Below, piece by piece: positions 10,065-51,917 of a DNA stretch of 64,000 nucleotides. This DNA comes from Embleya scabrispora (GTDB lineage: Bacteria; Actinomycetota; Actinomycetes; Streptomycetales; Streptomycetaceae). Position 1 is the stretch's first letter. Each line of letters starts with the position of its first letter. The stretch lies in contig NZ_MWQN01000001.1 of NCBI RefSeq assembly GCF_002024165.1, forward strand, positions 6,510,001 to 6,574,000. The letters are read 5' to 3'. A program made the translations under genes and the position numbers. The notes below the pieces were generated by a model. It had not been told where the DNA came from. It searched no databases and worked only from the letters and a program-made list of their open reading frames with translations.

Positions 10065-10212
10065 CCCCCGTCCGGACGGACGCGGTGTCACGGTCCGCGG
10101 TTCCCGTCCGCGGCACTGAACGCCGGGCCGTTTCGACCGTGTGGATATCCTGACCCGGCGCCACCCGGACTGGCGCCCATTGAACCGTGCAGTTGTGGAG
10201 TCCCCGACCGAC

Positions 10213-11673: not shown

Positions 11674-11735
11674 GCCCGTTCGGCGCGACATAGGCTGACC
11701 TCGAACGAAGACCACCGGAAGAAAGCAGAGGACCC

Positions 11736-12392
11736 GTGGACGCCCACGTGGACGCGGCCCCGCCGCCTACCCGGGAGGGCGGCGTCGACGCTCCCAGCGA
11801 CCGGATCGTGACGATCCCCAACCTGCTCAGCTTCGCCCGCCTGCTCGGTGTCCCCGTCTTCCTGTGGCTCATCCTGGCGCCCGAGTTCGGCGGCCCCAAA
11901 CACGACCTGTGGGCGCTGGCGCTGCTCATGCTCAGCGGGATCAGCGACTACCTCGACGGCAAACTGGCCCGCCGCTGGAACCAGGTCAGCAAGGTCGGCG
12001 CGATCCTGGACCCGGCCGCCGACCGGCTCTACATCCTCGCCACCCTGGTCGGCCTGACCTGGCGCGAGATCCTGCCGATCTGGCTGACCGCGATCATCCT
12101 GGGCCGCGAGTTGTTCATGGGCGTGGTGCTGTTGATCCTGCGCCGGCACCGCTACGGCGCGCTCTCGGTCAGCTTCGTCGGCAAGGCCGCGACCTTCAAT
12201 CTCATGTACGCCTTCCCGCTCCTGCTGCTCAGCGACGGCACCGGACGTGTCGCAACTCTCGCCGCGATCTTCGGATGGGCGTTCGCCTGGTGGGGTACCG
12301 CGCTGTACTGGTGGGCAGGAGTCCTCTACGCAGCCCAGGCCAAACGGCTCGTGGCCGCGGACAAGGCGAGTCGCACAGCGACCGCCGGGTAG
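11736..12392 (+). CDS. CDP-alcohol phosphatidyltransferase family membrane enzyme
   Basis: A 218-residue protein with the complete CDP-alcohol phosphotransferase motif D-x2-D-G-x2-A-R-x8-G-x3-D-x3-D (SDYLDGKLARRWNQVSKVG followed by AILDPAADRLY). The eight-residue gap in this motif and about six hydrophobic segments are normal for the family. Members make phosphatidylglycerophosphate, phosphatidylinositol phosphate or cardiolipin; which one is not decidable here. GTG 11736 follows an AGAGGA-like site. It lies between the mannosyltransferases and the mannose-1-P guanylyltransferase homologue, so a role in making the lipid anchor of a mannolipid is plausible. Confidence 0.9.
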   Translation: MDAHVDAAPPPTREGGVDAPSDRIVTIPNLLSFARLLGVPVFLWLILAPEFGGPKHDLWALALLMLSGISDYLDGKLARRWNQVSKVGAILDPAADRLYILATLVGLTWREILPIWLTAIILGRELFMGVVLLILRRHRYGALSVSFVGKAATFNLMYAFPLLLLSDGTGRVATLAAIFGWAFAWWGTALYWWAGVLYAAQAKRLVAADKASRTATAG

Positions 12393-35986: not shown

Positions 35987-37207
35987 ATGACCACGCTCGT
36001 CTTCGTGCACGGAACCGGCGTGCGCGATGTGACCGACTCGGCCGCGGTCCGCACCATCACCGCCAGGGTCGCCGCACGGCTGCCGGGGGTGCGGGTGGAA
36101 CCGGTGGACTGGGGCGCGGCGTTCGGCGTCGAGGTCTCGCCCGAACTGCGCACGCTGATCGGGATCGCCGACCCCGCCGAGTGCGGACCGGCCGCCGAGG
36201 TCGACCCCGAGGAGGCCGAACTGCGGTTGTGGGCGGTGTTGGAACGACACCCCCGCCACGAACTGCGCGAGGTGGCCGCGGGCGTGGCGCCCGGCGGGCG
36301 GCGGACCGAGGCGGCCGAGGATCTGCGCTGGGCGGTGGAGCACGACGTGGTCGGGATCGACCTCGCCGCGGTGTTGCCCGGCGTGCCGCCCGAGTGGCCG
36401 GACGTCTTCGCCGCGGCGGCGCGGGACGTCGCCGACTCCGCCGAGTTCACCGGCGCGGTCGAGGCGTTGGCCGCCGGCGCCGACTACGACGTGATCGGCC
36501 GCGCCGTGGTGGCCGGCTTCGAGCAGGCGCTCGCCGCCCGGCCCGGGGCGCCGAGCGCGTGGTCGCCGGAGTGGCGCGACACCCTGGTCGCCGCCGTGCG
36601 CGACGCGTGCGGCGGCACCACCGCCGGCGGCACCTGGGTCGGCCGGACCTTCAAGAGCGGCCTGATGTACGCGAGTTGGCCGCTGCAGAACACGCTGCGC
36701 GGCGGCACCCTGGGCAACAGCGTGCCCGCGATCGGCGACATCCTCCACTACCAGGCGCACGGCGCGACGCTGCGCGCCTACCTCGCGGCGCGGATCGCCC
36801 GGATCGAGGGGCCGGTGGTGCTGCTCGCGCACTCCCTGGGCGGGATCGCCTCGTTCGAGACGCTGGCCGAGGCGGCCGGGCCCGACACGCCCGAGCGGCG
36901 GCGCCATCCGCTCCCGGGCGTACGGGCGCTGATCACCGTCGGCTCGCAGATCGGCTACCTCGGCGCGGTCGGCGCGCTCGCGACCCACCCGGCGCAGGCG
37001 GAGCCGCCGAGCCGGTTGAGCATTCCGTGGACCAACGTGTGGAACGCCCGCGACTGGTTGTCGTTCCGCGCCGCACCGGTCTTCGGGACGGCGGTGCGCG
37101 ACGTCGAGGTCCGGGTGCGCCGGCCCTTCCCCCGGTCCCACGGGGCCTACTGGCGCTGCCCGCGGCTCTACGACGAGATCGCGCGCGCGGTGGAGGGCGC
37201 TCGGTGA
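35987..37207 (+). CDS. Alpha/beta-hydrolase (lipase-like), first gene of module A
   Basis: A 406-residue protein starting TTLVFVHGTGVRD (HG motif of the oxyanion-hole strand), with the nucleophile elbow LLAHSLGGIASFE near residue 280 and a later NVWNARDWLSF segment whose Asp fits the catalytic acid. The first Gly of GxSxG is Ala here, which some hydrolases tolerate. The middle 150 residues (Ala/Asp/Glu-rich helices) are lid-like and unfamiliar. GGGGGAGAG precedes the ATG. Its stop overlaps the caspase-like gene (GTGA), so the hydrolase is co-translated with the signalling module and may be an effector acting on lipids, esters or peptides (inference). Confidence 0.72.
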   Translation: MTTLVFVHGTGVRDVTDSAAVRTITARVAARLPGVRVEPVDWGAAFGVEVSPELRTLIGIADPAECGPAAEVDPEEAELRLWAVLERHPRHELREVAAGVAPGGRRTEAAEDLRWAVEHDVVGIDLAAVLPGVPPEWPDVFAAAARDVADSAEFTGAVEALAAGADYDVIGRAVVAGFEQALAARPGAPSAWSPEWRDTLVAAVRDACGGTTAGGTWVGRTFKSGLMYASWPLQNTLRGGTLGNSVPAIGDILHYQAHGATLRAYLAARIARIEGPVVLLAHSLGGIASFETLAEAAGPDTPERRRHPLPGVRALITVGSQIGYLGAVGALATHPAQAEPPSRLSIPWTNVWNARDWLSFRAAPVFGTAVRDVEVRVRRPFPRSHGAYWRCPRLYDEIARAVEGAR

Positions 37208-39216
37208 CGGTGCACGCCCTGTTCGTCTGCGTCGAGCACTATCCGGCGGACGAGCACGGCGTGGGAGATCTGCCGGGCGCGCTCGCGCAGACCCTGGAAC
37301 TGGTCGAGTGGCTGCACGCGAGCGGCGCCGCCGGTGCCGAGCGGATCACCGTGCTCGCGTCGGTGCGGGCCGCGTCGAAGCCGACCGCCGAGCGGCTGCG
37401 GGACCTGATCGCGCGGGATTCGATCCTGCTGGGACCCGGCGCCGGGCCCGGTGAGCTGCAACACGTCCACTTCGAGCGGGTGATCGGCGGGATCGGGGAG
37501 AACTGGCGGGACGGCGACCGGTTCCTGCTGCACTGGACCGGCCACGGCCGGCTGGACGCGCACGGGCGGTGGCTGGAGCTGCCCGCGTTCCACCTGGCGG
37601 GTGATTCCCGGCTGTCGGTCCGGGCGATCGGCGTCGACGAACTCCTGGCCCGATGCGGCGAGGTGCCGCGCCGGGTCGACCAGTTCCTGATCTTCGAGAC
37701 CTGCGCAGACCGTCGCGGTGAGCCCAGGGCCATCCCGCTGAACCTGACCGCGGCCGGCCCGAGCGACAAGTCGGCCAAGGCCCGGATCTCCGCCGTCTTC
37801 GCCGCCGACGACGGCCAGTTCGCGTACCGCCCCGCGGACCGGCCCGCGTTCACCACGGCCCTGATCGAACACCTGACCCTGCGGGGAGTGGACGCGCTGA
37901 CCGTGCCGGCCTTTCGCGAGATGTTCGACGAGATCGACACCCGGCTCGCCGCAGGCGACCCCGGAGGCCGGCCGCTGCGCCAGTCGCCGATGTACCGCGG
38001 GCCCGGCGCCGCCGACTGGCGCGAGGGAGAGCGCGATCCGGAGAACCAGTTCGGCCTGTACCGACACCGCCTGCTCGCCCTCCTCGCCGACCTGGAGATC
38101 GGCGCCGGCGAACCCGCCGTGCTGCGCACCTACCTGCGCGAACGAGGCGTGCCCGAGTGGGTCTTCGCCGGCGCCGACCTCCTCGCGTGGGGAGAGGCGC
38201 TGATGTCGCTGTCGGGACCGCCGGGCCGGCATCCGATCCGGCACCTGCTGGAATGGCTGTACGCCGGATGCCATCAGACGCATGTCGCGGAGTGGGCCGA
38301 GCGGTTGCGCGAGGCCGGACACATCGACGCGTTCCGCCCGGCCGAGGTGCGCGAGCGGCAACCGCTGACGCTGGTGATGTTCATCCGCGAGAACGAACAC
38401 TCGCCCGACCGGCCGGACCGAGTGCGCTACGACGCCGAAGCACAGTTCTACGTCGGCCTCGAACGCTTCGAGGCGCCCCCGGGCCTGCCCTCGGGCACCG
38501 GCCTGCCCCGGGAGCGACTCGACGACCACCTCGCCGACTTCTACCTGACCATCCGCACCGGCTGGACCTCCCTGGCCAGGGCCAGGGTGCAACTGGTGGT
38601 GCCGACCGAGTTGTTCAACGAGCCCTTCGAGGCGGTCCGGATCGGCGGCGCCGACGACCACATCGTGCTCGGCGAGCACCACGAGGTGGTGCTGCGGCCG
38701 ATCGTGCGGCACGGCGTGGTCCGGCCGATGCACTACGACACCTGGGCCGACTCCGCGAACCTGCGTGCCAACCCGGCGGTGCGGCACCTGAACCGGCACC
38801 TGTGCGGCCGCGGCAGCCGCGACTGCGACGACGAGGCCGTCGGCTTCCTCCAGGACTACCGGTGGGAGCACCGACCGGGCCGACCCGGCACGGTCGAGAC
38901 CGCGGTCGGCCGCGGCGACTGGGCCCTGCTGTGGACACACGGGACCACCTGTACCGACGCGTGCGCCGGCACGAACGGCGCGCACGCCGACTGCTCCGGC
39001 GCCGCCCTGGGGCGGGACCTGTACCGGATACTGGAGCAAAAGAACCGAAAACTGACGCAACTGCCTTCCGCCGTGACCCTCCTGCGGCGCACCCTGGGGC
39101 GCAGGGCCACGCCGCCGGAGCGGGTCGTGCTGTTGTTCGACGATCCCGGTTGGCGTCCGTGGCAGGGTGCGGGACTGCTGCGCGGCGCCCCGGCGGGCAG
39201 GGGGGACGGGCGATGA
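37204..39216 (+). CDS. Caspase-like protease with VMAP-type C-terminal domain
   Basis: A 670-residue protein. The N-terminal 260 residues are a caspase-like (peptidase C14) fold: FVCVEHYP…LPGALAQTLELVEWL opening, His114 in LLHWTGHG and Cys167 in LIFETCAD as the probable dyad. A helical middle (about 280-400) follows. The C-terminal part (LTLVMFIREN…, ARVQLVVPTELFNEPFEA, GEHHEVVLRPIVRHGVV) matches my recollection of the vWA-MoxR-associated protein (VMAP) C-terminal region described in bacterial NTP-dependent conflict systems. Overlaps on both sides (GTGA, ATGA) tie it to the hydrolase and the MoxR ATPase. The likely role is a protease switched on by the ATPase/vWA pair. Confidence 0.78.
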   Translation: MTVHALFVCVEHYPADEHGVGDLPGALAQTLELVEWLHASGAAGAERITVLASVRAASKPTAERLRDLIARDSILLGPGAGPGELQHVHFERVIGGIGENWRDGDRFLLHWTGHGRLDAHGRWLELPAFHLAGDSRLSVRAIGVDELLARCGEVPRRVDQFLIFETCADRRGEPRAIPLNLTAAGPSDKSAKARISAVFAADDGQFAYRPADRPAFTTALIEHLTLRGVDALTVPAFREMFDEIDTRLAAGDPGGRPLRQSPMYRGPGAADWREGERDPENQFGLYRHRLLALLADLEIGAGEPAVLRTYLRERGVPEWVFAGADLLAWGEALMSLSGPPGRHPIRHLLEWLYAGCHQTHVAEWAERLREAGHIDAFRPAEVRERQPLTLVMFIRENEHSPDRPDRVRYDAEAQFYVGLERFEAPPGLPSGTGLPRERLDDHLADFYLTIRTGWTSLARARVQLVVPTELFNEPFEAVRIGGADDHIVLGEHHEVVLRPIVRHGVVRPMHYDTWADSANLRANPAVRHLNRHLCGRGSRDCDDEAVGFLQDYRWEHRPGRPGTVETAVGRGDWALLWTHGTTCTDACAGTNGAHADCSGAALGRDLYRILEQKNRKLTQLPSAVTLLRRTLGRRATPPERVVLLFDDPGWRPWQGAGLLRGAPAGRGDGR

Positions 39217-40310
39217 GCCAGGCCACGACGAGCAGCGCCGGGGACCACGATCCGGGGGAGTCCGCCGCGTCGTGGTGGATCTACCGCGACGCCCACGGCG
39301 AGACCGGGGGCCCGGCCGGGACCGGCCCGGTCGCACTCCCGGCTCCGCCACCGTGGCGGCTGTTCGGCACCGACGACGTCGGCGACCACGTGCCGGAGCC
39401 CGCCGCGCTGCCCGGCGAACGCTCCGGCGAGCCGTACTCGGGCGAATTCCACGGCAACCGCCGCGTCTACGACCTCGTCAACGCCGCGATCTACCTGCGC
39501 CGGCCGCTCCTGGTCACCGGCCGCCCCGGCACCGGCAAGACCACCCTGGCCCGCAGCATCGCCACCCGCCTGCGCCTGGGCCCGGTGCTGCGCTGGGGGA
39601 TCACCAGCCGCTCCACCCTCCGCGAGGGGCTGTACGGATACGACGTGCTCGCCCGCCTGCACGACATGAACCTGCGCGCCAAGGGCGCGACGGGCCCGAT
39701 AGGCGCCGACGCCGACGACATCGGCGCCTACATCACCCTCGGCCCGCTCGGCGACGCCCTGCTGCGCCGCCCGCACCCGAGGGTGCTGCTGATCGACGAG
39801 ATCGACAAGAGCGATGTCGACCTGCCCAACGACCTGCTGCACGTGTTCGAGACCGGCCGCTTCGAGATCCCCGAACTGCGCCGGGCCCGGCTGCGCAGCG
39901 CGAAGGTGACACCGTACGACGGCGACTTCGGCGACCGGGTCGAGGTGCGCGACGGCACCGTGCGCTGCGCCGCGTTCCCGATCGTCATCCTCACCAGCAA
40001 CGGCGAACGCGCCTTCCCGGCCGCGTTTTTGCGGCGCTGCGTGCCGCTGGAACTGCGCGCGCCGGATCGCGACGTGCTCAAGCGCATCGTGCGCAGCCGA
40101 CTGCCCGAGGGAGTGCCCCTGGACGAGTCGTTGCTGGACCACTACCTGGAGTTGGCGAACGGCGTCGACGGGCCGCTGCTGTCGCCGGACCAACTGCTCA
40201 ACGCGCTGCAGTTCCGCGACCGGATCCGCGAGCGCACCGGGCCGGCCGGCCGGCTGCCCACCAACGACACGCTCGCCACCCTCCTGTTCCACGACCTGGA
40301 CGGGGGATGA
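39213..40310 (+). CDS. MoxR-type AAA+ ATPase
   Basis: A 365-residue AAA+ protein. After a disordered 70-residue N-terminus come Walker A GRPGTGKTT (residues 103-111), Walker B VLLIDEIDKSD (191-201), sensor 1 IVILTSNGER and the arginine-rich FLRRCVPLEL. MoxR ATPases act as chaperones that remodel vWA-domain partners; the next gene encodes a vWA-like protein. The start overlaps the caspase gene (ATGA), and the next gene begins four bases after the stop. Confidence 0.92.
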   Translation: MSQATTSSAGDHDPGESAASWWIYRDAHGETGGPAGTGPVALPAPPPWRLFGTDDVGDHVPEPAALPGERSGEPYSGEFHGNRRVYDLVNAAIYLRRPLLVTGRPGTGKTTLARSIATRLRLGPVLRWGITSRSTLREGLYGYDVLARLHDMNLRAKGATGPIGADADDIGAYITLGPLGDALLRRPHPRVLLIDEIDKSDVDLPNDLLHVFETGRFEIPELRRARLRSAKVTPYDGDFGDRVEVRDGTVRCAAFPIVILTSNGERAFPAAFLRRCVPLELRAPDRDVLKRIVRSRLPEGVPLDESLLDHYLELANGVDGPLLSPDQLLNALQFRDRIRERTGPAGRLPTNDTLATLLFHDLDGG

Positions 40311-40313
40311 GCG

Positions 40314-43007
40314 ATGGCGGAGGAGGAACCCGCCGAGGTCACCGTCGACGCGGTCCTGGACTGGGCGTGGTTGACCGCCGTGATCGGCACGCGAGGCGCC
40401 CCGCCCGATGCGGCGGTCGAGATCGCGGCGCCGGCGGCAGCGGCGCCCGCGGCTCGCGGACCCGGGCCGCCGGTCCCGCCCGGACCGGAGCCCCCGCCCG
40501 CGCCGATCGCCCGCCGCCCGCCACGGGCGGTGCGCGGCCCCCGCCCGGAGACCTCCCTCGCCTTCACCGCCGTGCCCGACTCCGTCGAGTCGATCGAGCG
40601 GATCGGCACCGGCCCGGCGGGCGCGGTCGCCCGTCGCCTTCCCGCCTGGCTCGGCGAGGCCCGGCCGCCGGCCGCCTCGGTCCTGCCCGACCGGCTCGAA
40701 CTCGCGCGCCTGCTGCGCCGGTTGCGCTCCCACGGCACCGCGCCCCACGCGGTGGTCCTGGACGAGGAGGCCACCGCGGAACAGGCGGCGCTGACCGACC
40801 TGATCGTGCCGGTGCTCGAACCGGCCCGGGAGCGCTGGTTCGAACTCGCCCTCGTCGTGGACAGCGCGCCCTCGATCGCCCCGTGGCGACGACTGCTCGC
40901 CGAGTTCACCCGACTCGTGAACGGGAACGGTACGTTCCGCGCGGTGCGTTCCTGGTCCCTCGACACCGACGTGCCCGGCCGTGCGGTGCTGCGCACGCCG
41001 TTCGGCATGCCGGCCCCACCCGCCGCACCGGTCGGCCCCACCGGACGGCGGATCGTCATGGTGATCACCGACGGGGTCGGCCGCGCCTGGTCCCACCCCC
41101 AGACCTCGGCCATGCTCGCCTCGTGGGCGAAGCAGTGTCCCGTGGTGCTGCTGAACCTGCTGCCCAAACGCTGGTGGGACCGCGCGCGGATCCCGTCCAC
41201 CCCGGTCGTCTTCCGCAGCCGAGGTACGGGCGCCGCCCGCCGATCGGCCTTTCGGGTCCGGCACACCACGCGCTGGACGGGCCCGCCCGAACGGGTCGCC
41301 GTCCCGCTGATCGCCCTGCACCCCGAGGGCCTGTGGGCGGACGACCCGGCGGATCGCCGAGCCGGTCGGTGGAGCGAACTCTCCCGCTGGGCCCGGATGA
41401 TCACCGACGAGCGCGGTCGCGAGTTCGCGGGCCCCGCGTGGGTGCTCGACCCGCGCGCGCCGGCGGGCGGGCCCGTGCCCGCCCCGGTGCCGGCCGAGGA
41501 CCGGCGCACACCGGCGGTACGGCTCGCCGAATTCCGCGCCGGCGCCTCCCCGGACGCCGTCGAACTGCTCGGAAAACTCGCCGCCGCGCCGATCAGCCCG
41601 GCCACGATGCGCGTCGTGCAATCGGCGGTGCTCGGGCAGGAGGACCCCGCGTTCGCCGCCGAGGTGATGCTGAGCGGCCTGCTGGTCGAGTCGCCGGATC
41701 GGGACGAGGCGGCGCGAGCGGACGACGTGGTGTACGACCTGGACGAGCAGGTCCGGGAGACGTTGCTGACCGCGATGAGCCGACGGTCGGCGCTGGAGGT
41801 GTACTTCCGGGTCGCCGAGTTCCTGCACGAGCGCAACGGCCACGCCGAGTTCGACTTCCAGGACCTGCTCACCGCGCGCGAGCCCGCGGCGGTCGGTCTG
41901 CTCGGCCCGCACAGCCGCCCGCTCGCCCGGGTCGGCGCGACGCTGCTGCACCATCTCGGGCCCGACTACCGGCCCCGGGCCCGACGCCTGGAGGCCCGGG
42001 CGAACGGCCCGATGTGGCGCCGACGCGAGCTGACCCGGGCGTGGACGGCGCGGATGAGCGACTGGATCCGGGCGCGGCCGGTGGTCACGGACGGGCTGAT
42101 CGTGGTGCAGGACGTGGCGGGGATGCTGGTGGTCCTCGATCCGCTGACGGGGATGGCCCGGTGGACGGCTCACCTGGGCGCGCCGTCGCGGTGCGCTCCG
42201 GTGGTGACGTCGGGGCGGGTGTGGGCGGGGTGTGACGACGGTGGGCTGTATCGGTACGACCCGACGAGGAGGCTCGGGCCGGACGCGTCGGTGACGGTCG
42301 GCGACGCCGCCGTGGTGGCGCTGGTACCGGGGCCGGTCGGTGCGGACGCGGTGTTCGTCGCCACTTCGGACGGCCGCGTCGTGTGGCTCGACGCCGCGAA
42401 CGACACGACGGAGCTGTGGGGAACGCGCTCGGGCGTACCGGCCGGACTGTGTGTCTCGGGGGATCGGACCGCGGCGGTGGACCGGGCCGGCCGGGTCGGG
42501 GCGTGGCGCGCGCCCCCGGAATCCGCCTCGTGGACGCGGGACCTGTCCGAGGCCGTGCACGCCGCCCCGGTGGCCGACGAGGAGCACGTGTACGTCCCGC
42601 TCGCCACCGCCGGGATCGCGGCGCTGCGCTGGGCCGATGGGGAGGTCGCCTGGCGGGCGCGGTTGCCGGGTGGGGTGTTGAGCACACCCGGGGTCGGCGC
42701 CGGGCTGGTGGTGGCGGTGTCCACCGACGGTCTCCTGTACGCGTTCGACGTCGAATCGGGACGTCGGGTGTGGCACACCGTCGACGTGCCGCAACCCGGG
42801 TTGCGGGTGACCCTGGCGGACGGGCTGGTCCATGTGGCCGGTGACGCCGGCGGCATCCGTACCCACGACCTGGCCACCGGTCGTCGACTGGCCGAAATCC
42901 GCTCCGACGTAGGGGTGTCCGTGGCGGCCGCCGCGCGGGGACGGCTGATCCTCGCCGGGCTCGACGGCACGGTGACGTCGCTGGAAGGACCGGTGGTGGT
43001 CGACTGA
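40314..43007 (+). CDS. vWA-like (SAV_2336-type) protein with C-terminal beta-propeller
   Basis: An 897-residue protein. Residues 120-330 form a Rossmann-like vWA region (LALVVDSAPSIAPWRRLLAEF; VMVITDGVGRAW), but the MIDAS DxSxS reads D-S-A-P-S, so metal binding may be altered. A helical region (410-570) with LLGKLAAAPISPATMRVVQ and YFRVAEFLHERNGHAEFDF recalls SAV_2336-related proteins. Residues 580-897 are repeated blades with GLIVVQDVAGMLVVLDPLTGMARW, GLLYAFDVESGRRVW and GGIRTHDLATGRRLAEI, a PQQ/WD-type propeller likely to act as sensor. It is the vWA partner of the MoxR ATPase in module A. Confidence 0.82.
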   Translation: MAEEEPAEVTVDAVLDWAWLTAVIGTRGAPPDAAVEIAAPAAAAPAARGPGPPVPPGPEPPPAPIARRPPRAVRGPRPETSLAFTAVPDSVESIERIGTGPAGAVARRLPAWLGEARPPAASVLPDRLELARLLRRLRSHGTAPHAVVLDEEATAEQAALTDLIVPVLEPARERWFELALVVDSAPSIAPWRRLLAEFTRLVNGNGTFRAVRSWSLDTDVPGRAVLRTPFGMPAPPAAPVGPTGRRIVMVITDGVGRAWSHPQTSAMLASWAKQCPVVLLNLLPKRWWDRARIPSTPVVFRSRGTGAARRSAFRVRHTTRWTGPPERVAVPLIALHPEGLWADDPADRRAGRWSELSRWARMITDERGREFAGPAWVLDPRAPAGGPVPAPVPAEDRRTPAVRLAEFRAGASPDAVELLGKLAAAPISPATMRVVQSAVLGQEDPAFAAEVMLSGLLVESPDRDEAARADDVVYDLDEQVRETLLTAMSRRSALEVYFRVAEFLHERNGHAEFDFQDLLTAREPAAVGLLGPHSRPLARVGATLLHHLGPDYRPRARRLEARANGPMWRRRELTRAWTARMSDWIRARPVVTDGLIVVQDVAGMLVVLDPLTGMARWTAHLGAPSRCAPVVTSGRVWAGCDDGGLYRYDPTRRLGPDASVTVGDAAVVALVPGPVGADAVFVATSDGRVVWLDAANDTTELWGTRSGVPAGLCVSGDRTAAVDRAGRVGAWRAPPESASWTRDLSEAVHAAPVADEEHVYVPLATAGIAALRWADGEVAWRARLPGGVLSTPGVGAGLVVAVSTDGLLYAFDVESGRRVWHTVDVPQPGLRVTLADGLVHVAGDAGGIRTHDLATGRRLAEIRSDVGVSVAAAARGRLILAGLDGTVTSLEGPVVVD

Positions 43008-43061
43008 CCAACGCTCGGATCACGAGCCGGCGGACGACCGATCACAACCCGTGGGAAACGC

Positions 43062-43090
43062 TTCGACTCGGCCACGCGCGGGACTACGAT
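43062..43090 (+). promoter_or_regulatory. Promoter between module A and module B
   Basis: TTCGAC (43062-43067) and TACGAT (43085-43090) are separated by 17 bp. The downstream leader contains GGGTAAGT and ACTTACCC about 45 bases apart, an inverted repeat that could fold. The 245-bp gap is the largest inside the cluster, so module B probably has its own transcription start. Confidence 0.5.
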
Positions 43091-43252
43091 CGACCACTGC
43101 GGGTAAGTGGTCGTCACGGCACGCAGGGTCGTTCGCCGACCCGCGATGTCGACTTACCCGGGGTTCCACGACCGGTGAGGCGTCGGCGGGGCGCTCCGGA
43201 AGGGACGAACGGGGGGATTCGTGCCGGGAGTTCAGCGACGGGTCGGTGACCG

Positions 43253-45207
43253 GTGAGCACAGCGTCGACGGGCCCGCGCGCGCCGGGCGACCGGTACACG
43301 ATTCCGGAGGCGGTGTGCCCCGTCTGCTGGGGCCCGGCTCCGGCCGCGGGCCCGTGCCGGACCTGCGCGTGGCCGCCGGCAGATCCCGGGCCCACCGCCT
43401 ACCAGGACGCGGCGCGGGCCTTCGACCACGCGGCCGTGCTCCGGGTCGCGCCGGCCCGCGGGTTGACCGAGGTGCCCAGTGCGCTGGCCGATCTGGTCAG
43501 GTTCGGCCCGGTCGTCTCCGAGCCGGCCTCGACCGCCGCCGCCCCGGTTCCCGGGACCGGACGGGCCGCGGTGCTCACCCTGCTCGCCGCGCTGACCGCC
43601 GGCGAACTGGACCTGGTGTTGTTCGTGGACATCGGGACCCGGTACCTGGCGGCGCAGTGGGTGACGCTCGACGAACGCGGTTTCGTCAGCGCGCCGTCGG
43701 CGAACCGGACCCGCCACGACTGGCGCGAGGTGGTGCCCTGGCTGCCCGAGGACGACGCGGCCCGCGATCTGACCCTGGCCGGCGGGGTGGGGCGACGACC
43801 GGCCGTGGGCACGGCCGAAGCTCCCGAGGCATTGGCTCCCAGGGCCCGGTCGACGCTGCGGGAGAACTGGGCCGATCCGAGTGGTTGGCGCGCGCTGCCG
43901 GGTGACCCCTGGGCGCGGGCCTGGGCCCTGGTGCTGGTGGAACGCCGCCCGGAGTGGACCTGGTGCGCGCTCGCCGCCGAGGTGGTGCGGGAGCAGGTGC
44001 GGCCGGCCGCCGTGCTGGGCGGCGGTTGCCTCCACGACGAGAGCATCGAACTCCCGGCCGTGATCGAGATGTTGGCCCTCGACGTGCCCGCTCGCCACGC
44101 ACTGCACCTGGTCGGCGTCGACCCGGGGCCGGAGGACTCGACCCGAGATCGCCCCACCATGCTCCTGGATCGAGGGGCGACGCCGGGTGCGGCCGACGGC
44201 CCCCCGCTCGCCGAGATCACCCTCGGCCTGCGCGGCGAAGCCCCGCACGGGCACGACGTCGCGGTGGCGGTCGCCGACGTGGCCGACCCCGCCGGGTGGT
44301 CCGAGCTGGAGCGGGTCACCGTCTTCGCGCCGCCCGGCGAAGTCCGGCTCACCGTGCGGATGACCGGCCCGGGACGGGTGGACCTCACCGTCTGCGGCGG
44401 GGCCGCCTGGGTGCTGGGTACCGGCCGCACCGACCTTCGGCCGGCCGGGCCGCCGGCCGCCGACGCGGCGCTGCCCCGTCCCTTCTGGCAGCCGACCCCG
44501 CCGACCGCCCACGACCTCCTCTGCGTGGTCGAATTGGGCGGCTCCCCCAACAGAGCGCCGCCCGGCTCGACTTCGTCCGCGCGCTGCTCGCGGAGGCGGC
44601 CCGCGCCGACCGGTCGACGCGCTGGGAGCAGGCCGCCGTGCTCGGCTACGACGACCACCCCCGACCCCGGCGCAGCCGTCACGACCCGCTGCGCCGGGTC
44701 GACTTCGCCCCGCCCCACGCGACGCGGGCGGCGATCGCCGACTGGGTCGGGACACCTGTGGTGGACCCGTACGCCGCACCCCTGGAGCGGGTGTGCGCAC
44801 TGCTGCGCACGAACACGCTCGGCCGGCAGGTGCATCGGCCCACCCTCGTGGTGACCGTCGGCCTGCGCGGCCCGCACCCGTACGTGCAGGGCCTCGACCC
44901 GGCGCAGGCGTACGGCGGCGGCCGATGGGACGCGGACCTGGCGAGTCGACGGGCGGCCCGGCCGGACGATCGCCACCTGCTGGTGACCGACGACCCCGGA
45001 TACGCGGGCGCGGCGGACCCCCGGGTACACGATCGCACCCTGAAGGCGTGGCGACTGCTGGGCGCCGACGGGTGTTTCACGCTCGGCCGCACCACACCCG
45101 CCGACCTGCTGCGATTCGGCCGCGCCGCGCTGACCGGCACGACCGGCGCGCCGCTGCTGCTCGACGTGGTCACCAGGCCGTCGGGCGGGAAAGGGGTGCG
45201 CCGATGA
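43253..45207 (+). pseudogene. Zinc-ribbon module B protein interrupted by a frameshift
   Basis: Translation from GTG 43253 gives an N-terminal zinc ribbon (CPVCWGPAPAAGPCRTCAW) and a convincing protein to about 44540 (ending VVELGGS). Sense then moves to another frame (QQSAARLDFVRALLAEAARADRS…) and continues to the stop at 45207, which overlaps the next start by ATGA. The shift is at a run of five C (44544-44548); one extra C restores one frame of about 650 residues. It may be a recent mutation, a sequencing error or recoding. The intact far end and its coupling to the next gene favour a very recent event or an error. Function unknown; no membrane segment is seen. Confidence 0.75.
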
Positions 45208-46178
45208 CGCGATCGTCCGGCTCCCGGGACGGGGAGCCGACCGGTGGCGCGGTCCTGGAGAAGCGGATAGCCCTGTGGGGCGCGCCGGAATCGGGCCGCA
45301 CCACGTTCGTCGCCATGGTCCCCGAGGCCGCCGAGGAGCGCTCACGCGGACTCGGGCACGGCGGCACCGGCCGAGACCATCCGCCCCGGTGGAAGGTGTT
45401 CGGCACGGACGACGCCACCCAGCGCTTCCTCCGGCACACCGACCACGCGCTGCTGAGCGAACACCGGTTCCCGGGCGAGCCCGGCGGGAGCGTCGATACC
45501 GCCGAGCCGACGCGATACCGCTTCCTCTTCCGGCGCGACCCGCGCCTCGTGCCGCTGCACCGCTTCACCGACCACTTCCGATTCGCGGCCACGATCACCG
45601 AGTTGCCGGACCCGAGCACCCGGCGGGACGAGGTCAAGCGGGCCCTGGCCGACTGCACCGGCCTGATCGTGCTGTTCGACCCCACCGACGCGAGCGGCGC
45701 GGGCGAGGACGCGGTACGCGCGCTGGACCGCATGCTCACCGAAGCCGCCGCCGACCTCCAGCCGCGCACCGACCCCCGCGGCCGGTTGCCCTTCGAACCG
45801 GCCGTGTGCGTCACCAAGATCGACGACATGACGCTGTATCGGGAGGCGCGCCTGGGCGCCTGGGCCGAGTTGGACCGCGACGGCCGGGTCCGGGTGCGCG
45901 ACCCCCGGGCGTACTTCCGCCGGTTGTGCGAGCGCGACGGGCCGTGCCCGTACCCGGCCGCCGCCGAATTGCCCGGCATCCTGGAGCGGCACTTCGGCCG
46001 GATCCGCTACTACGCGACCTCGGCGGCGGGCTTTCGCCGCTCCGCGGGCCGGATCGACCCGGAGAGTTGCCGCAACGTCGACCCGCACGGGAACCGCCTC
46101 GACGGACCGCCGCACCCCCAGGGTGTGCTGGAACCCATTCTCGGCATGCGCGCGGTGCGCATCGCGAAGGGGGGATGA
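45204..46178 (+). CDS. TRAFAC-type GTPase domain protein of module B
   Basis: A 324-residue P-loop protein: Walker A GAPESGRTTF (residues 26-35), a switch/Walker B-like segment AATITELPDP, ALADCTGLIVLFDPTDAS and a G4-like TKID. This agrees with the small-GTPase-like proteins found with vWA and GTPase-associated proteins in actinobacterial conflict loci. The absence of membrane segments places it in the cytoplasm. The start overlaps the zinc-ribbon gene, and the secreted vWA gene begins three bases after its stop. Confidence 0.8.
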   Translation: MTRSSGSRDGEPTGGAVLEKRIALWGAPESGRTTFVAMVPEAAEERSRGLGHGGTGRDHPPRWKVFGTDDATQRFLRHTDHALLSEHRFPGEPGGSVDTAEPTRYRFLFRRDPRLVPLHRFTDHFRFAATITELPDPSTRRDEVKRALADCTGLIVLFDPTDASGAGEDAVRALDRMLTEAAADLQPRTDPRGRLPFEPAVCVTKIDDMTLYREARLGAWAELDRDGRVRVRDPRAYFRRLCERDGPCPYPAAAELPGILERHFGRIRYYATSAAGFRRSAGRIDPESCRNVDPHGNRLDGPPHPQGVLEPILGMRAVRIAKGG

Positions 46179-46181
46179 CCG

Positions 46182-48005
46182 ATGTCCCGAATCGCCCCGA
46201 ACTCCCGCCGGCCCCGGACCCGTACCCGGTTCGTGGCCCCCGTGTTGCTGCTGCTCGTCCTGGCGCTGTCCGCGTCCCCGGCGCACGGCGTCGGCCGGGC
46301 CGACGGCGAGCCGCCCGCCGATTCGACCGCGCAACTCCTGGACGAGTTGGGCGCCGACGCCCAACCGGCCGACTTCTACATGGTGCTCGACGTGTCGACG
46401 TCGATGCGGGAGAACGGCGGCTACGACGAGGCGAAGACGGCGCTGCGCAACCTGCTGACCGCGATGCAGCCCCGGGACCGGATCTCGGTGATCCGATTCG
46501 GCGCGACCACCACCGTTTTTCGGCCACTGGACGCGGCCCCCCGGGGCGGTCCCGCGGTCTCCGAGTTCCTCGCCGGGTTGCCCAAGCCGAACGACGAGGA
46601 GAGCGACTTCGGCGCGGCGATGGTGTCGGTGTCCGGGATCGTCGCCGCGGCGCCTCCCGCCGCGGACGGATATCGGCCGCCCACCGCGATCGTGGTACTC
46701 ACCGACGCCGATCTGTACGCGCCGAACAATCCGCGCTTCGCCGACGAATCGGCGCCGGGGTGGGAGGCGTTGCGGCAGGAGTACGCGAAGGCGGTCGCCG
46801 AACGCGGCCCGATCTCCGCGTACGCGATGCCGCTCGGCGACAACGGGCGCGGGGTCAACCTGATCGCCAAGGTCCTGCCCAGGGCCGAGACGCTCAGCGG
46901 CTCGGTCGCCGAGCAGGCGGCCCGGGTGCGCGCCCTCGAACAGGACGCGCGCGTGCGCAAGGGGGCCGCGGTGGTGCGGGCGGACAAGGACGCGACGGTC
47001 CGGGCCCGGTTCGCCCCGGCGCCCGCACACCCGCGCGGCGTTCACCCCACCGACGCCGACTGCGCCGGCGCCGGGCCGCCGGTCGACCCGATCGACCTGT
47101 CCGCCCGAGGCACGCTCTGCCTGACTCTGGCCTCCACGGCACACCGCATCCGGTTGACCGTCGCCGACCTGCACACCGGCGATCCGGCGATCGATCGGGC
47201 GCTGCCGCGCGACCCGATCACCCTGGAGCCCGGGGTGCCGCGACACTTCCCGATCGAGGTGCGGGCGCACGAGCGCACCCGCTCCGACCTGTTCGCCCGG
47301 TCGCGGACCTACGCCGCGTCGACGACGGTGCGGGGCACCGTGACCGCCACCCGGGCCGCCGAGTTCGCCGAACTGCTGCGGGTGGAGGGCCCGTACGCCG
47401 CCGCGGGCCTGCGCGACGGCCGCCTGGCCTACACGGGCCGGGTGCGCGGATCGGTCATGTGGTCGGTGTGGGCCCTCGTGCTGGCGGCGACGACACTGGT
47501 CGCGGCGGGGGGAACGGCGGCGTGGCGCTGGTTCCCGGCCGGTGTGTACATCGAACTGAGCATGGAGGAGGAACGCTCGGAGTTCCCCCAGAGCACGGCA
47601 CACCCGGCTCTGGGCATGCGCCATCGCTGGACCCACGAGCACGATCCGGCGGCCGGCGCGATCACGTCCTTCCTGGCCCGGGGCCGCCGGCCGCGCTCCG
47701 GGCGGGGTGTGACGTTGACCGCGCGCCACGAGCGGGACGGGCACATCCACACGTCCCGTCGGCGGCTGGCCGTCGACGACGCCACCATGCTGTACGGCGT
47801 CCGCGCCCGGGTGTTGCGCCGACCGCCGACACCGCGGCCCGGCGCCGACCCGGCGTCGACCACCGCGGAGGCGACCGCGATCGACGCGCCCGCGCAGAAC
47901 GGCCGGTACTCGGGGATCACCCGGCCCGATCCCGGGGAACAACACACACCGGTAGCACCGGCAGGATTGATCCCCCCGACCCCGACGCCCCGGCCGCCTC
48001 GCTGA
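46182..48005 (+). CDS. Exported, membrane-anchored vWA-domain protein
   Basis: A 607-residue protein with an N-terminal signal (RTRTRFVAPVLLLLVLALSASPAHG), an extracellular vWA domain with an intact MIDAS (YMVLDVSTSM, D70-x-S72-x-S74; later VVLTDAD), a beta-rich region, a single membrane segment near residues 425-450 (WSVWALVLAATTLVAAGG) and a cytoplasmic tail of about 155 residues ending Pro/Thr-rich. It resembles the C-terminal half of the next gene's product, indicating duplication. It could couple an outside ligand to the cytoplasmic GTPase (inference). Confidence 0.83.
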   Translation: MSRIAPNSRRPRTRTRFVAPVLLLLVLALSASPAHGVGRADGEPPADSTAQLLDELGADAQPADFYMVLDVSTSMRENGGYDEAKTALRNLLTAMQPRDRISVIRFGATTTVFRPLDAAPRGGPAVSEFLAGLPKPNDEESDFGAAMVSVSGIVAAAPPAADGYRPPTAIVVLTDADLYAPNNPRFADESAPGWEALRQEYAKAVAERGPISAYAMPLGDNGRGVNLIAKVLPRAETLSGSVAEQAARVRALEQDARVRKGAAVVRADKDATVRARFAPAPAHPRGVHPTDADCAGAGPPVDPIDLSARGTLCLTLASTAHRIRLTVADLHTGDPAIDRALPRDPITLEPGVPRHFPIEVRAHERTRSDLFARSRTYAASTTVRGTVTATRAAEFAELLRVEGPYAAAGLRDGRLAYTGRVRGSVMWSVWALVLAATTLVAAGGTAAWRWFPAGVYIELSMEEERSEFPQSTAHPALGMRHRWTHEHDPAAGAITSFLARGRRPRSGRGVTLTARHERDGHIHTSRRRLAVDDATMLYGVRARVLRRPPTPRPGADPASTTAEATAIDAPAQNGRYSGITRPDPGEQHTPVAPAGLIPPTPTPRPPR

Positions 48006-48062
48006 CATCGTGTGCGGGCACCGGGCCCGACCTCGACCGGCATCCCGCACGGAAAGGTTCAC

Positions 48063-51000
48063 GTGGACGCGACCGACCGACACGACCGCCCCCGCGAGAC
48101 CGCGGGCACGTTGCGGGCGCATTGGGCCTGGTACCACGACGGCGCGGTGCCGGCGTGCAGCGCGGGACCCGAACGGCGGGCGCACTTCGAACGGTTGGTG
48201 CGACCCACGCTGGACGAGTACGCGCCGCCCGGCTGGGTCGGGGTGACCGGCGCCGGGCGCGAGGACTCCTTCGTCGCGATGACGCTGCGCGATCCGGAGG
48301 GGGTGCGCTACTTCACCGCGCCCTATGCCGAGATCGCCGCCGCCGGCGCCACGTACACCGCGCTGTGGCTGGCCTTTCGCGGGATCGACCTGCCCACCGA
48401 CCGGGAACGGCCGCTGCGGGTGCGGCTGCCGGGACCGGCGCCGACCGCCGCCCTGCACCTGGACGACTTCGAATGGCTCGCCGGGGTCGCGGCGGCGGTG
48501 CTGGCCGGCCCCGTGGTGATCACCGGCGCCGACCGCCTGGACAGCCGGGCCCGGCTCGAACTCCTGGACCGGATCACCGCGTTGCTCCCGTACGGCTGCC
48601 GCGCCGGACTGCGCTTCGCCACCTCGCTCGGCCCCACCGGCCGGCTGCGCCCCCGACTCGCCTTCGGCCGGGTGCCCGCGCCGGGGACGGTCCGGGTCGC
48701 CCTGGACGGCGTGCCGGCCGTACCCGACCTCCCCGCCGCCCGCGCCTACCTGGGCGAACTGACCATGCTGCGCCGCCGTATCGGGCTCGACCCGCTGGTG
48801 GCCGCGCTCGCGACGCTGCGCGAGGCGGGCCCGCCGGTGGCCGGGGACCGCCTGCTCGGGCTGCTCGCCGAGGTGGGCGCGCGGTTCGGACCGGGCGCGG
48901 GAGTGGGGGTCGGCAACGGATCGGGTGTGCGGGTCGGCAACGGATCGGGTGTACGGGTCGGGCCGGCGCCGGGGTCCGAACCGGGCCGGGAGGCCGCCCG
49001 ATTCGCCGCCGAAGACCCGACCGGGCCGAGCTCGCGCGCGCGGGGCGTCGAGGCGCGGCCGTCGCCGTCGCCGGTACACCCGTCGCCGCCGCCGACACGC
49101 CCGTCACCCCCGCCGCCGCCGTCGCCGCCCCCGTCGCCGCTGGAGCGGCTGCTCGGCGGCGATGTCGCGCTGGCCGCGCCGATCGCCGAGCGCTGGCGGG
49201 CGGAGGACGGCGACGACGTGACCCGGGACATGGCCGCCGCGCTGCGCGCCCGCCCGGCGAGCCTGGCGCTGGGGTGGAACACGGCGGTGGCGGCCGGGCG
49301 CGGGGATCGGCTCGTGCACGTCCTGCTCGGCCCGGTGCCGCCGCTCCTTGCCGGCTCCACCCCGCCCGCCGGTCTCGACGCGCGGGCCCTGCGCGTGCCC
49401 GAACCCTCGGTCAACGGCGCCGGCAAGGCCGACGCGGACGTGGTCTCGCCGGAGGCCCTGGTCGCCGACCTGTGCCGACTGCTCGGGCCCACCCCGACCA
49501 CCGAGGTGCCCGCGCTCTACGACGCGCTGTGGAACCACCCCGTGGTGCTGCGCCGCCTCCTGGACACCGCGGGCGGCGACCTGGGCGCGTGGTTGGGGGT
49601 GATCCGACCCTGGGACGACCGGGCGCCGGAGTGGCTGGCGCCGTACGCGCTGCTCGCGGGCGAGCGGTTGCGGCCGGCCGAGATCCCGCCCGCCGAGGCG
49701 GTGTTCACCCTGCGCGTGGCCGGACGCACCGACACCGCCACGATCGCCGCGGTGCTGCACGACCTGTGGCCGACCCTGGTCCCGCTCACCGAGCAGCGCG
49801 CCGACCCCGCCGCGCGCGGACTGGCCGCGCTCCTGGAGAAGCCGCTGGGCCCCGCGGCACCGGTCGCCGCCCGGGTGCGGGCAGACGTACTGCGGCTGGC
49901 GCTCGGCGGTGCGCCGACCGACGGGCCCTACGTGGCGGCCGATCTGCTGGCGCTGCGGCACGAGCCGGTCGCCGAGGGGCGGTTCGCCGGGTGGATCGCG
50001 GCGCTGCTGCGCGCGGTGGCGGTCACCCCCGAACTGCTCGGCGAGCTGGTGCGGGCCGGGGATCCGGCGGTCACCGCCGCGGTCGCGGACGCGGTGCTCG
50101 CCGACGCGCGGCTCGCCGAACTGCCCGGCCTGGACGACGCGTGGTGGGCGGCGATCGCCCGGGCCCGCCCGGAGTTGGCCGGGCGCGCCGCGAGCGGCTG
50201 GTTCCGCAACGCGCTGCGCGGGGCGGACGCGCGGGCGGCGGCCGGGGTGTGGGCGGGCGAGATCGTGGACGGCGCGGCCCGCCCGCGGCGCGACCTGTAC
50301 GTGCACGAGGTCGGCCGCTGGTGGCACGCCGCGCCCGACCGCGAACGCGACCTGCTGCTGCCCAGCCTGGAACGGGAGTTGATCGTGCGCGGCGGCACCC
50401 CGGCGCAGGCCCGGGAGGAACTGCGCGCGATCCGGGTGGCGATCGCCGCGCACGCGTGGGGGCCGGAGGCCGCTTCGTCGATCGTCGAACGCGAGCAGGA
50501 GGAGTTCGAGACGTTCCGCCGCCACCTCAAGCAGTTGCGGGCCGCGCTCAAGCACGGCGACGCGCTGCGGGTGCTGGCGATACCGGCGATCCTCGCGCTG
50601 ATCGCCCTGCTGGCCGCGGTGCCGCCGGGTGGCGCCGCGGCCGCCGCGCGCCCTCCGACCGCGAGGACTGAACCGCCCGACCCCTATGGCGCCGAGCGGC
50701 TGATCACCACCCTGGGCGCGGACCGGGAGCGGGTGAACTACGTGATCCTGGTGGACACCTCGGCCTCGATGCGGCGCACCGGTCGCTATGCCACGGCCAG
50801 GTCCGCGCTGACCGCGTTCCTGGCCCGGTTGACCGCGCGCGACCGGGTCGCGCTGGTCACCTTCGACGGTGTGGCGACCGAGCACGGCAACGGCCTGGAA
50901 CCGGTCACCGACCCGGCCGCGATGGCCGCGCGCCTGCCCCTCCCGCGCCCGAGCGAGCCGGCCGACGCGAACCCGGCGGGCGGCGCGCCGCCGCTCCGGG

Positions 51001-51917
51001 CCGAGCCGCCGAGCGATGTGCACGCGGCGCTCGAACGCGCGCTGGTGGTGTTGCGCACCTCCGCGCCGGATTCGGTGAACGGGGTCGTGCTGATCTCGGA
51101 CGCGGCCCGCGACGCGGTGGGCCCGGACCTGCGCAAGGACTTCGACCGGCTCGGCGAGGAGGGCCGTGCGGTGGCCGGGTTCGCCGTCCCGCTGGCCAGT
51201 GACAGCAGCGCGGGGCCGGCCCTGCAGCGGGTGTTGCCGAACACCCGGGAGCTGCGCGACGATCCGGCCGACCCGGGCATCGCGCTGACCCAGGCCCGGA
51301 CCGGTCTGTACCTGCGGCACGCCGCCCGGTTCGTCGACGCGGACCGGGACAAGGGTGTGCAGGCGACCTGGCTGATGCCGCCGCCGGAGCAACCGGACGC
51401 GGTGGACTGCCGCGCCTTCCGGCCGGTTCCGCCGGACCGGCGACTCGATCTGTCCTCGGGGCGCGAGATGTGCCTGCGCCTGGTGGCCGGCACCACCAGG
51501 GTGCCGCTCCAGGTGACCCGGTTGCGGGTGGACGGCGTGGGCGTGGTCGGCCTCAAGGACGGCGCGCCGCTGCTGGCCCCCGGGCAGCCGGTGTACTTCT
51601 CGGTCAATCTGGCCGCCCGTACGCACCGCACGGACGGCATGTGGGCGGACGCCGGTCACTACGACGCGCGGGCGCGCGTGGTGGGGGAGGTGCACAGCCC
51701 GCTGGCCGAGACGATCAAGCAGCAACTCCCGGACGCCCGGCTCGCGTTGCGCACGGATGTGGTGGGCGACGAACTGCTCTACCGGGGCGACGAGCGGGTG
51801 GACCTGAGCTGGTGGCCGTGGCTGCTCGCGGGCCTGGGCACCCTCGCCGTCGCCGGGGTGGCGTGGTTCGGATGGTCCTGGGTACGCCCGCGTGTTCGAC
51901 GTCGTTGGGTACGGTGA
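48063..51917 (+). CDS. GTPase-associated region fused through a membrane segment to an extracellular vWA domain
   Basis: A 1284-residue protein. The N-terminal 830 residues are soluble; RITALLPYGCRAGLRFATSL and the long Ala-rich helical array recall GTPase-associated proteins of conflict loci. They include a Pro/Ser-rich linker and a duplicated VGNGSGVR segment near residues 283-300. Then comes a membrane segment (about 837-856, LAIPAILALIALLAAVP), an extracellular vWA domain with intact MIDAS (LVDTSASM, D898-x-S900-x-S902), and a final membrane segment near 1250-1275. GTG 48063 has GGAAAGG five bases upstream; the upstream in-frame GTG 48012 lacks one. No stop or internal ribosome site separates the halves. 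Confidence 0.8.
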   Translation: MDATDRHDRPRETAGTLRAHWAWYHDGAVPACSAGPERRAHFERLVRPTLDEYAPPGWVGVTGAGREDSFVAMTLRDPEGVRYFTAPYAEIAAAGATYTALWLAFRGIDLPTDRERPLRVRLPGPAPTAALHLDDFEWLAGVAAAVLAGPVVITGADRLDSRARLELLDRITALLPYGCRAGLRFATSLGPTGRLRPRLAFGRVPAPGTVRVALDGVPAVPDLPAARAYLGELTMLRRRIGLDPLVAALATLREAGPPVAGDRLLGLLAEVGARFGPGAGVGVGNGSGVRVGNGSGVRVGPAPGSEPGREAARFAAEDPTGPSSRARGVEARPSPSPVHPSPPPTRPSPPPPPSPPPSPLERLLGGDVALAAPIAERWRAEDGDDVTRDMAAALRARPASLALGWNTAVAAGRGDRLVHVLLGPVPPLLAGSTPPAGLDARALRVPEPSVNGAGKADADVVSPEALVADLCRLLGPTPTTEVPALYDALWNHPVVLRRLLDTAGGDLGAWLGVIRPWDDRAPEWLAPYALLAGERLRPAEIPPAEAVFTLRVAGRTDTATIAAVLHDLWPTLVPLTEQRADPAARGLAALLEKPLGPAAPVAARVRADVLRLALGGAPTDGPYVAADLLALRHEPVAEGRFAGWIAALLRAVAVTPELLGELVRAGDPAVTAAVADAVLADARLAELPGLDDAWWAAIARARPELAGRAASGWFRNALRGADARAAAGVWAGEIVDGAARPRRDLYVHEVGRWWHAAPDRERDLLLPSLERELIVRGGTPAQAREELRAIRVAIAAHAWGPEAASSIVEREQEEFETFRRHLKQLRAALKHGDALRVLAIPAILALIALLAAVPPGGAAAAARPPTARTEPPDPYGAERLITTLGADRERVNYVILVDTSASMRRTGRYATARSALTAFLARLTARDRVALVTFDGVATEHGNGLEPVTDPAAMAARLPLPRPSEPADANPAGGAPPLRAEPPSDVHAALERALVVLRTSAPDSVNGVVLISDAARDAVGPDLRKDFDRLGEEGRAVAGFAVPLASDSSAGPALQRVLPNTRELRDDPADPGIALTQARTGLYLRHAARFVDADRDKGVQATWLMPPPEQPDAVDCRAFRPVPPDRRLDLSSGREMCLRLVAGTTRVPLQVTRLRVDGVGVVGLKDGAPLLAPGQPVYFSVNLAARTHRTDGMWADAGHYDARARVVGEVHSPLAETIKQQLPDARLALRTDVVGDELLYRGDERVDLSWWPWLLAGLGTLAVAGVAWFGWSWVRPRVRRRWVR

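Follow-up and report, generated by a model that had tools for sequence, protein, structure and literature searches.

We analyzed a stretch of 64,000 nucleotides from the genome of the soil bacterium Embleya scabrispora (positions 6,510,001-6,574,000 of contig NZ_MWQN01000001.1; henceforth the window), in which eight genes on the forward strand, A to H, make up an island at positions 35987-51917 (Table 1). With modest confidence, we propose that the island encodes one composite signalling system leading from the cell envelope to a protease, in which a caspase-type VMAP ternary complex (genes A-D, module A) is joined to a GTPase/GAP1-derived membrane module (genes E-H, module B). The observations that count for this proposal are the gene order kept in the four Embleya genomes despite the low identity of B, F, and G; the proteins of other lineages in which the vWA component is fused to a GTPase domain or to E; the number of VMAP-C genes linked to GTPase loci, which exceeds that expected at random; and the clade formed by the MoxR sequences of the Embleya and Streptomyces composites together with the fast divergence of the island.

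Table 1. Features of the island, with positions in the window
Feature	Position	Strand	Basis
A: alpha/beta-hydrolase-type protein, 406 amino acids	35987..37207	+	Nucleophile motif AHSLGG; weak Pfam Ser_hydrolase match, E 0.039
B: caspase-like domain, VMAP-M19, and VMAP-C, 670 amino acids	37204..39216	+	PF20022, E 4.1e-78; PF20028, E 9.3e-21
C: MoxR-type AAA+ ATPase, 365 amino acids	39213..40310	+	AAA_5, E 4.5e-8; Walker A, Walker B; N-terminal WWIYR and PPPWRLF motifs
D: SAV_2336-type vWA component with C-terminal PQQ-type beta-propeller, 897 amino acids	40314..43007	+	NF041121, 304.6 bits (cut-off 200); PQQ_2, E 1.1e-25
D/E gap between the modules	43008..43252	+	245 bases with conserved blocks; 68% mean column identity (alignment of four Embleya genomes)
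E: zinc ribbon (by eye), HSP70-like region, and vWA-like domain without metal site	43253..45207	+	Reading frames; model of the E. hyalina protein; Foldseek
F: DO-GTPase2 relative, 324 amino acids	45204..46178	+	PF19993 in relatives; motif census
G: exported vWA protein, 607 amino acids	46182..48005	+	VWA_2, E 2e-9; hydropathy; metal-site motif DVSTS
H: GAP1-like alpha/beta domain, helical repeats, membrane segment, and vWA	48012..51917	+	vWA, E 1.9e-7; model; hydropathy

Layout, conservation, and module A in Embleya

Genes were called from lists of open reading frames, the guanine-plus-cytosine content by codon position, and a codon-usage model, and the calls confirmed the eight co-directional genes that a preliminary description of the window had placed in this interval. 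The same description took most of the junctions to be close, and six of the seven are: A and B overlap by four bases in a GTGA, B and C as well as E and F do so in an ATGA, and gaps of 3, 3, and 6 bases separate C from D, F from G, and G from H, respectively. D and E, on the other hand, are not tightly joined. Blocks within the gap between them (43045-43130) are kept in the four Embleya genomes and look regulatory, and the gap is perhaps a separate promoter region.

Besides the window, the Embleya comparison covered the genomes G197, G198, and G199, the last of which is represented by a contig that ends inside H. In all four genomes, the eight genes stood in the same order and on the same strand. 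The island proteins of the window were 44-65% identical to those of G199, the lowest value being that of B, F, and G (44%), with the exception of H (77% over the 17% of its length that was compared), and the identity of the island to the two more distant Embleya genomes was 44-78%. The product of gene A was 96% (over 87% of its length), 72%, and 63% identical to its counterparts in the three congeners. By comparison, seven comparable flanking proteins were 69-94% identical between the window and G199, and the island proteins diverge faster than most of the flanking proteins compared. The flanking genes were alike on both sides of the island in G197 and G198, and on the upstream side in G199.

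Module A fits a VMAP ternary system of the caspase type accompanied by a hydrolase. The order VMAP, MoxR, and vWA (37204-43007) is identical in the three congeners, and the VMAP-C domain of B scored 75.2 bits against a cut-off of 27, being the only VMAP-C match in the whole 10.96-Mb source genome (G000). The N-terminal MoxR motifs WxhapG and PsWRxa are reported to mark VMAP systems, and caspase VMAPs to have an alpha/beta-hydrolase as a neighbor (Kaur et al., 2020; PMC7159879, cited here and below for passages of its text); both motifs are present in C as PPPWRLF and WWIYRD, the latter ending in D in the window where E. hyalina has the expected G. The caspase-like call made for B in the preliminary description was supported in part: the profile matches of the window protein are weak (E 0.0027 and E 0.0012), but His114 and Cys167 are invariant in the eight aligned rows (for G198, whose gene is split, the row holds its upstream part), and the B-type proteins of SID3343 and Streptomyces aureus exceed the cut-off of Peptidase_C14. 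Profile searches upheld the VMAP, ATPase, vWA, and propeller assignments of the same description, with VMAP-M19 and VMAP-C in B, AAA in C, the SAV_2336 N-terminal family and a PQQ propeller in D, and vWA in G and H; the core motifs of F are incomplete (see below).

The metal-site motif of D reads DSAPS, and no motif of this type was found at the start of the vWA domain by regular expression in the Streptomyces rows. A deletion between a vWA gene and a kinase-propeller gene was considered as the origin of D of Embleya; by similarity, the kinase-propellers of the composites rank first, but barely (57.8 vs 51.2 bits). In G198, the VMAP gene lies in two reading frames (L017, 16605-18636), by mutation or assembly error. 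VMAP-M19 exceeded its cut-off in the source genome alone (one of 197 and one of 296 genomes) and was discarded as a survey marker as too narrow.

Composite loci and fusions beyond Embleya

Named genomes were scanned with the GTPase alignment, and out of 166 pattern matches, 119 were confirmed as relatives, the best 80 of which were kept and represent 77 distinct loci. These loci were searched for the other island genes, the flanks of several being cut by contig ends. Eight clear composites were found, namely L028 and L029 (Embleya), L032, L035, L040, and L056 (Streptomyces), L054 (Actinomadura macra), and L075 (Dactylosporangium siamense, with the remainder in L138). L052 of Streptomyces hirsutus is a probable composite split between contigs. 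In L079 of Actinomadura soli, a MoxR gene and a fusion of the vWA component with E (1,074 amino acids; 8907-12131) are accompanied on the opposite strand by a convergent F-H-H module, and the third gene gave a weak VMAP-M0 match only. At the remaining 67 loci, the retrieved flanks, several of which are contig-cut, contained no VMAP system of this type. MoxR-like matches by L084, L094, and L103 of Streptosporangium were weak and were not counted as VMAP systems; the MoxR sequence of L084 forms a very long branch, and its genome has no VMAP-C match. The preliminary description had made its claim hinge on the two modules occurring together in relatives, and they do so, in conserved order within Embleya and linked or fused in other genera.

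In Streptomyces aureus, Streptomyces sp. MUM 178J, Streptomyces sp. PR69, and Streptomyces sp. NWU339, the composite comprises genes for a hydrolase, a VMAP, a MoxR, and a fusion of the vWA component with an F-like GTPase domain, after which come a short H-like gene, a kinase-propeller gene, and E, F, H, and G. The VMAPs of the Streptomyces composites are related to the caspase-VMAP-M18 of Streptomyces aureus, in which VMAP-C was not listed by hmmscan yet scored 73.9 bits in the genome search. A vWA-GTPase fusion was also found in Actinomadura macra as part of a trypsin-VMAP-M8 system, and a fusion of vWA, COR, and GTPase in Dactylosporangium siamense, both beside F and H genes; the VMAP-C protein of the latter gave matches to EAD2 and VMAP-M0 under cut-off. 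In G420 (L193, 8284-13791), a protein of 1,835 amino acids with vWA, WD40, NTPase, and GTPase-kin parts lies behind a trypsin-VMAP-M8 and a MoxR gene. The C-terminal part of this fusion is 40% identical to the fused GTPase of Actinomadura macra, and no E, F, or H gene was found in the 30 kilobases (kb) retrieved around it.

Whether such linkage is to be expected by chance was estimated for 50 of the 77 loci, whose genomes contained 67 VMAP-C genes above the cut-off. Eight VMAP-C genes were observed within 15 kb of a GTPase locus, in contrast to 0.22 expected at random; in one of the eight cases (L054), the neighboring GTPase locus is the second in that genome. The corresponding Poisson value is 1e-10 if kinship is ignored and 9e-5 if the cases are counted as four lineages (the MoxR tree gives three).

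Two trees, both inferred with a quick method, bear on the number of couplings. The MoxR tree contained 42 rows, from 41 of 44 loci (three had no match of sufficient length) and the window; among them, L112 and L142 represent a single gene, and L084 does not belong to a VMAP system. In this tree, the Embleya and Streptomyces composites formed an exclusive clade with a support of 100, while Actinomadura macra and Dactylosporangium were placed elsewhere. In the GTPase tree, which carries support by the Shimodaira-Hasegawa-like approximate likelihood ratio test (SH-aLRT) only, the vWA-fused state needs three changes, forced by the starred branches, and we read these as three gains of the fusion. 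Taken together with the differing VMAP types, the two trees favor at least three separate couplings, one of which would be shared by Embleya and Streptomyces.

Module B: GTPase kin and membrane vWA proteins

F of the window had no Pfam match of its own, but five of the 11 aligned relatives matched DO-GTPase2 (PF19993; best E 1e-7). We examined the core motifs in 91 GTPase-domain rows (95 matches, from which five rows of duplicate genomes were removed and to which the window was added). The G3 motif DxxG was present in 86 of them, the five exceptions being the four Embleya F proteins and the vWA-fused copy of Dactylosporangium, and the Walker A Lys was replaced with Arg in four rows, which are exactly the four Embleya F proteins. 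The TKxD and SA motifs are retained in Embleya. Since G3 and the Walker A Lys are missing from F in all of the four Embleya genomes, this protein is probably a stably kept pseudo-GTPase, and MoxR (C) is then probably the sole classical NTP motor of the island. The term NTP-dependent, applied to module B in the preliminary description, is therefore not supported. Elsewhere in the source genome, the GTPase alignment gave one further, weak match (G000:C1:4411975-4412349, E 3e-7, in a frame of 633 amino acids). In Streptomyces rhizosphaerihabitans (L069, 4371-7073), a protein of 900 amino acids has a GTPase-kin C-terminus behind a region with a kinase-like motif recognized by eye.

The hydropathy of G and H is consistent with the contrast, drawn in the preliminary description, between a membrane module and a cytosolic protease module. 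G has a signal-like segment at residues 17-35 and a membrane segment at 425-443. H consists of a GAP1-like domain (approximately 33-290), helical repeats (approximately 370-850), a membrane segment (852-870), and a vWA domain (911-1030) with the motif DTSAS; a hydrophobic stretch at its C-terminus is visible by eye and was unflagged in the hydropathy calculation. The N-terminus of H is collinear with GAP1-N2 proteins, for which hhalign gave 64% (E 6.5e-5) with an alignment of 18 rows and 15% (E 0.0018) with one of 55 rows. GAP1-M was matched below its cut-off in two of the seven scanned relatives of H and in none of nine others, and GAP1-N2 (PF20013) had no match anywhere in the source genome. 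Because the two profile comparisons are unequal in strength, GAP1-M stays under its cut-off, and GAP1-N2 is absent from the genome, we rejected the designation of H as GAP1-N2 and call its N-terminal domain GAP1-like, a suggestive kinship that falls short of GAP1 proper. The model of H (mean pLDDT, the predicted local distance difference test, 73.7) gave no Foldseek match at E 0.001; the guanine nucleotide exchange factor domains of DENND1A and DENND1B came up with probabilities of 0.93 and 0.91 at non-significant E-values (0.058 and 0.066, respectively), which we note (window 48108-48881) as a lead only.

The start frame of E differs from its end frame in the window assembly, with the switch near 44,546-44,553, whereas the two halves share one frame in the three congeners. 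The break is a one-base length difference within a C-rich run and could be an assembly error. Because of its position in such a run, programmed frameshifting was considered, and it was rejected as the default since the frame is continuous in the three congeners. A Foldseek search with the modelled E. hyalina protein (mean pLDDT 78.6) found HSP70/DnaK over approximately 365 columns (best E 3.1e-7) as well as vWA/I-domains. The TM-scores to whole HSP70 chains were low (0.13-0.24), perhaps owing to a different placement of domains, and in Pfam, E of the window had no match and the HSP70 family was matched by no scanned relative of E; we treat the resemblance to HSP70 as a fold-level lead. Thus, the zinc-ribbon gene of the preliminary description does contain a ribbon, as judged by eye, but its frame is broken here and it encompasses HSP70-like and vWA-like regions as well.

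Altogether, module B can be regarded as kin to GTPase-centred systems, as the preliminary description had it, on the grounds of the relationship to DO-GTPase2 and the GAP1-like H, but it can be placed among the published GAP1 systems only tentatively.

A putative envelope-to-protease pathway and its alternatives

In the pathway that we propose, the vWA domains of G and H outside the cell would bind an envelope or foreign ligand, and H would relay the change across the membrane to its cytosolic GAP1-like domain. The latter, with E and with F serving as a scaffold or binding switch and not as a working GTPase, would engage the MoxR-vWA pair of C and D. ATP hydrolysis by MoxR would remodel the complex and release the caspase of B, which, with hydrolase A, would cleave targets, so that the affected compartment stops growing or dies. 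Gene content and order, conservation, motifs, predicted membrane segments, and the recurring linkage and fusion of the modules are what the sequences show. We infer the physical complex, the direction of the signal, the ligand, the targets of the protease, and the role of the island in defence; likewise, we infer the direction from an outside ligand to the protease, which the preliminary description had already suggested. The signal may also run in reverse, with the protease acting first and the membrane event coming last.

Several observations weigh against this proposal. The catalytic motifs are missing from F, E is frameshifted in the window assembly, and 245 bases part D from E. Most GTPase modules have no linked VMAP, clear composites amounting to only eight of the 77 named loci. 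In a class sample of 394 genomes, in which five GTPase candidates were scored per genome at first so that the counts may miss some, at least 31 genomes had a GTPase match below E 1e-40 and at least 18 of those had VMAP-C as well; composites were seen only in G000 and G012, G420 has the fusion alone, the modules of G236 are approximately 9 kb apart with other genes between them, and in the remaining 14 of the 18, the matches listed are on separate contigs or have hundreds of kilobases between them. The matches of the fused GTPase domains to DO-GTPase2 are below the cut-off (23, 18.3, and 14 bits vs 27 in the three scanned), for which reason their identity rests on the similarity to F and its relatives. 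Finally, the three changes on the GTPase tree could equal one gain and two losses, and this tree has long branches, that of the fused Dactylosporangium row included. Judged from gene neighborhoods, the coupling of VMAP and the GTPase module is thus a recurrent but minority state.

Two separate conflict systems could adjoin in a defence-rich spot and share location or regulation only. Conflict operons are described as clustering (PMC7159879, section 23), and both the distance between the modules and the 69 loci that are not clear composites (67 without L052 and L079), several of them contig-cut, would agree with such an arrangement. Nevertheless, we hold it to be unlikely, as the order is kept in the four Embleya genomes down to the identity seen in the two more distant ones, the vWA component is fused to GTPase and to E in other lineages, and the linked VMAP-C genes far outnumber the random expectation. 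Decay of the island in the window strain is less probable still. The break in E, the motif loss in F, and the split VMAP gene of G198 would point to it, but the motif loss is common to all of the four Embleya genomes with the other motifs retained, the frame of E is unbroken in three of the four, and its break here could stem from the assembly.

A different question is whether the island serves defence at all. Cell-envelope or developmental signalling of hyphal actinobacteria would be compatible with A-H acting as one pathway. In line with such a role, the neighboring genes are shared with G197 and G198 on either flank and with G199 on the upstream one, and E, F, G, and H match no PADLOC model at E 0.1. 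The fast divergence relative to the flanks and the conflict-type variability described for VMAP systems (PMC7159879) argue otherwise, and we consider a non-defence role doubtful, albeit conceivable.

A broader view could also be put forward, to which we give somewhat less than even credence: multicellular actinobacteria may have repeatedly joined MoxR-vWA-VMAP and GTPase-GAP1 switches into one envelope-to-protease pathway, with a GTPase (working or pseudo) acting as a hinge that is either fused to the vWA component or paired with it, in analogy to a cascade of membrane receptor, G-protein, and caspase. The two kinds of system have been presented as distinct, and section 36 of PMC7159879 holds the MoxR-vWA and DO-GTPase-GAP1 pairs to be "not exchanged"; contrary to this, the linked and fused loci of several lineages speak for an exchange of the core pairs. 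From the fused proteins, one would predict that the MoxR-vWA side and the GTPase side influence each other, and the trigger of the VMAP caspase becomes testable, the membrane half being a candidate sensor that can be deleted.

The systems described as linked to ternary systems in PMC7159879 are those of peptide processing, diversity-generating retroelements (DGRs), and DUF397, and the tubulin subset of GAP1-N2 systems is described there as mutually exclusive with VMAP systems in actinobacteria. The main text of PMC8195603 does not mention DO-GTPase or GAP1, and that of PMC10907252 does not mention GTPase. Beyond PMC7159879, the source data of which may already list a neighborhood with both modules, no account of VMAP joined with DO-GTPase/GAP1-N2 surfaced in a search whose coverage excluded most subscription journals, the other paper returned being one on alignment methods.

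Compared with known systems, the island shares the VMAP-MoxR-vWA order, VMAP-M19 and VMAP-C, the MoxR motifs, and the caspase with its hydrolase with the caspase-type VMAP ternary system (PMC7159879), but differs from it in continuing on the same strand into a GTPase/GAP1-like membrane module. With the GTPase-centric systems of the GAP1-N2 type, in which HSP70 and kinase/vWA themes are described (PMC7159879), it shares the DO-GTPase2 kinship, a nearby GAP1-like protein, membrane vWA proteins, the HSP70-like fold of E, and kinase genes in relatives. Unlike those systems, the genome has no GAP1-N2 match, the zinc ribbon is on E and not on the GTPase, F has no G3, the module is joined to a VMAP system, and FNIII had no match at E 0.1 in the nine pieces scanned, to which the search for this domain was confined. 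The vWA protein with a C-terminal propeller recalls the beta-propeller MoxR-vWA ternary system (PMC7159879), from which the island departs in that C scored below the cut-off of bpMoxR (PF20030; 18 vs 27 bits) and the third component is a VMAP. For the DGR-diversified VMAP systems, a sensor on the vWA protein, a relay by MoxR, and the VMAP N-terminal effector as the output have been proposed (PMC10907252). This order fits the reading given here, with the difference that the sensor side of the island would be the membrane module of GTPase kin.

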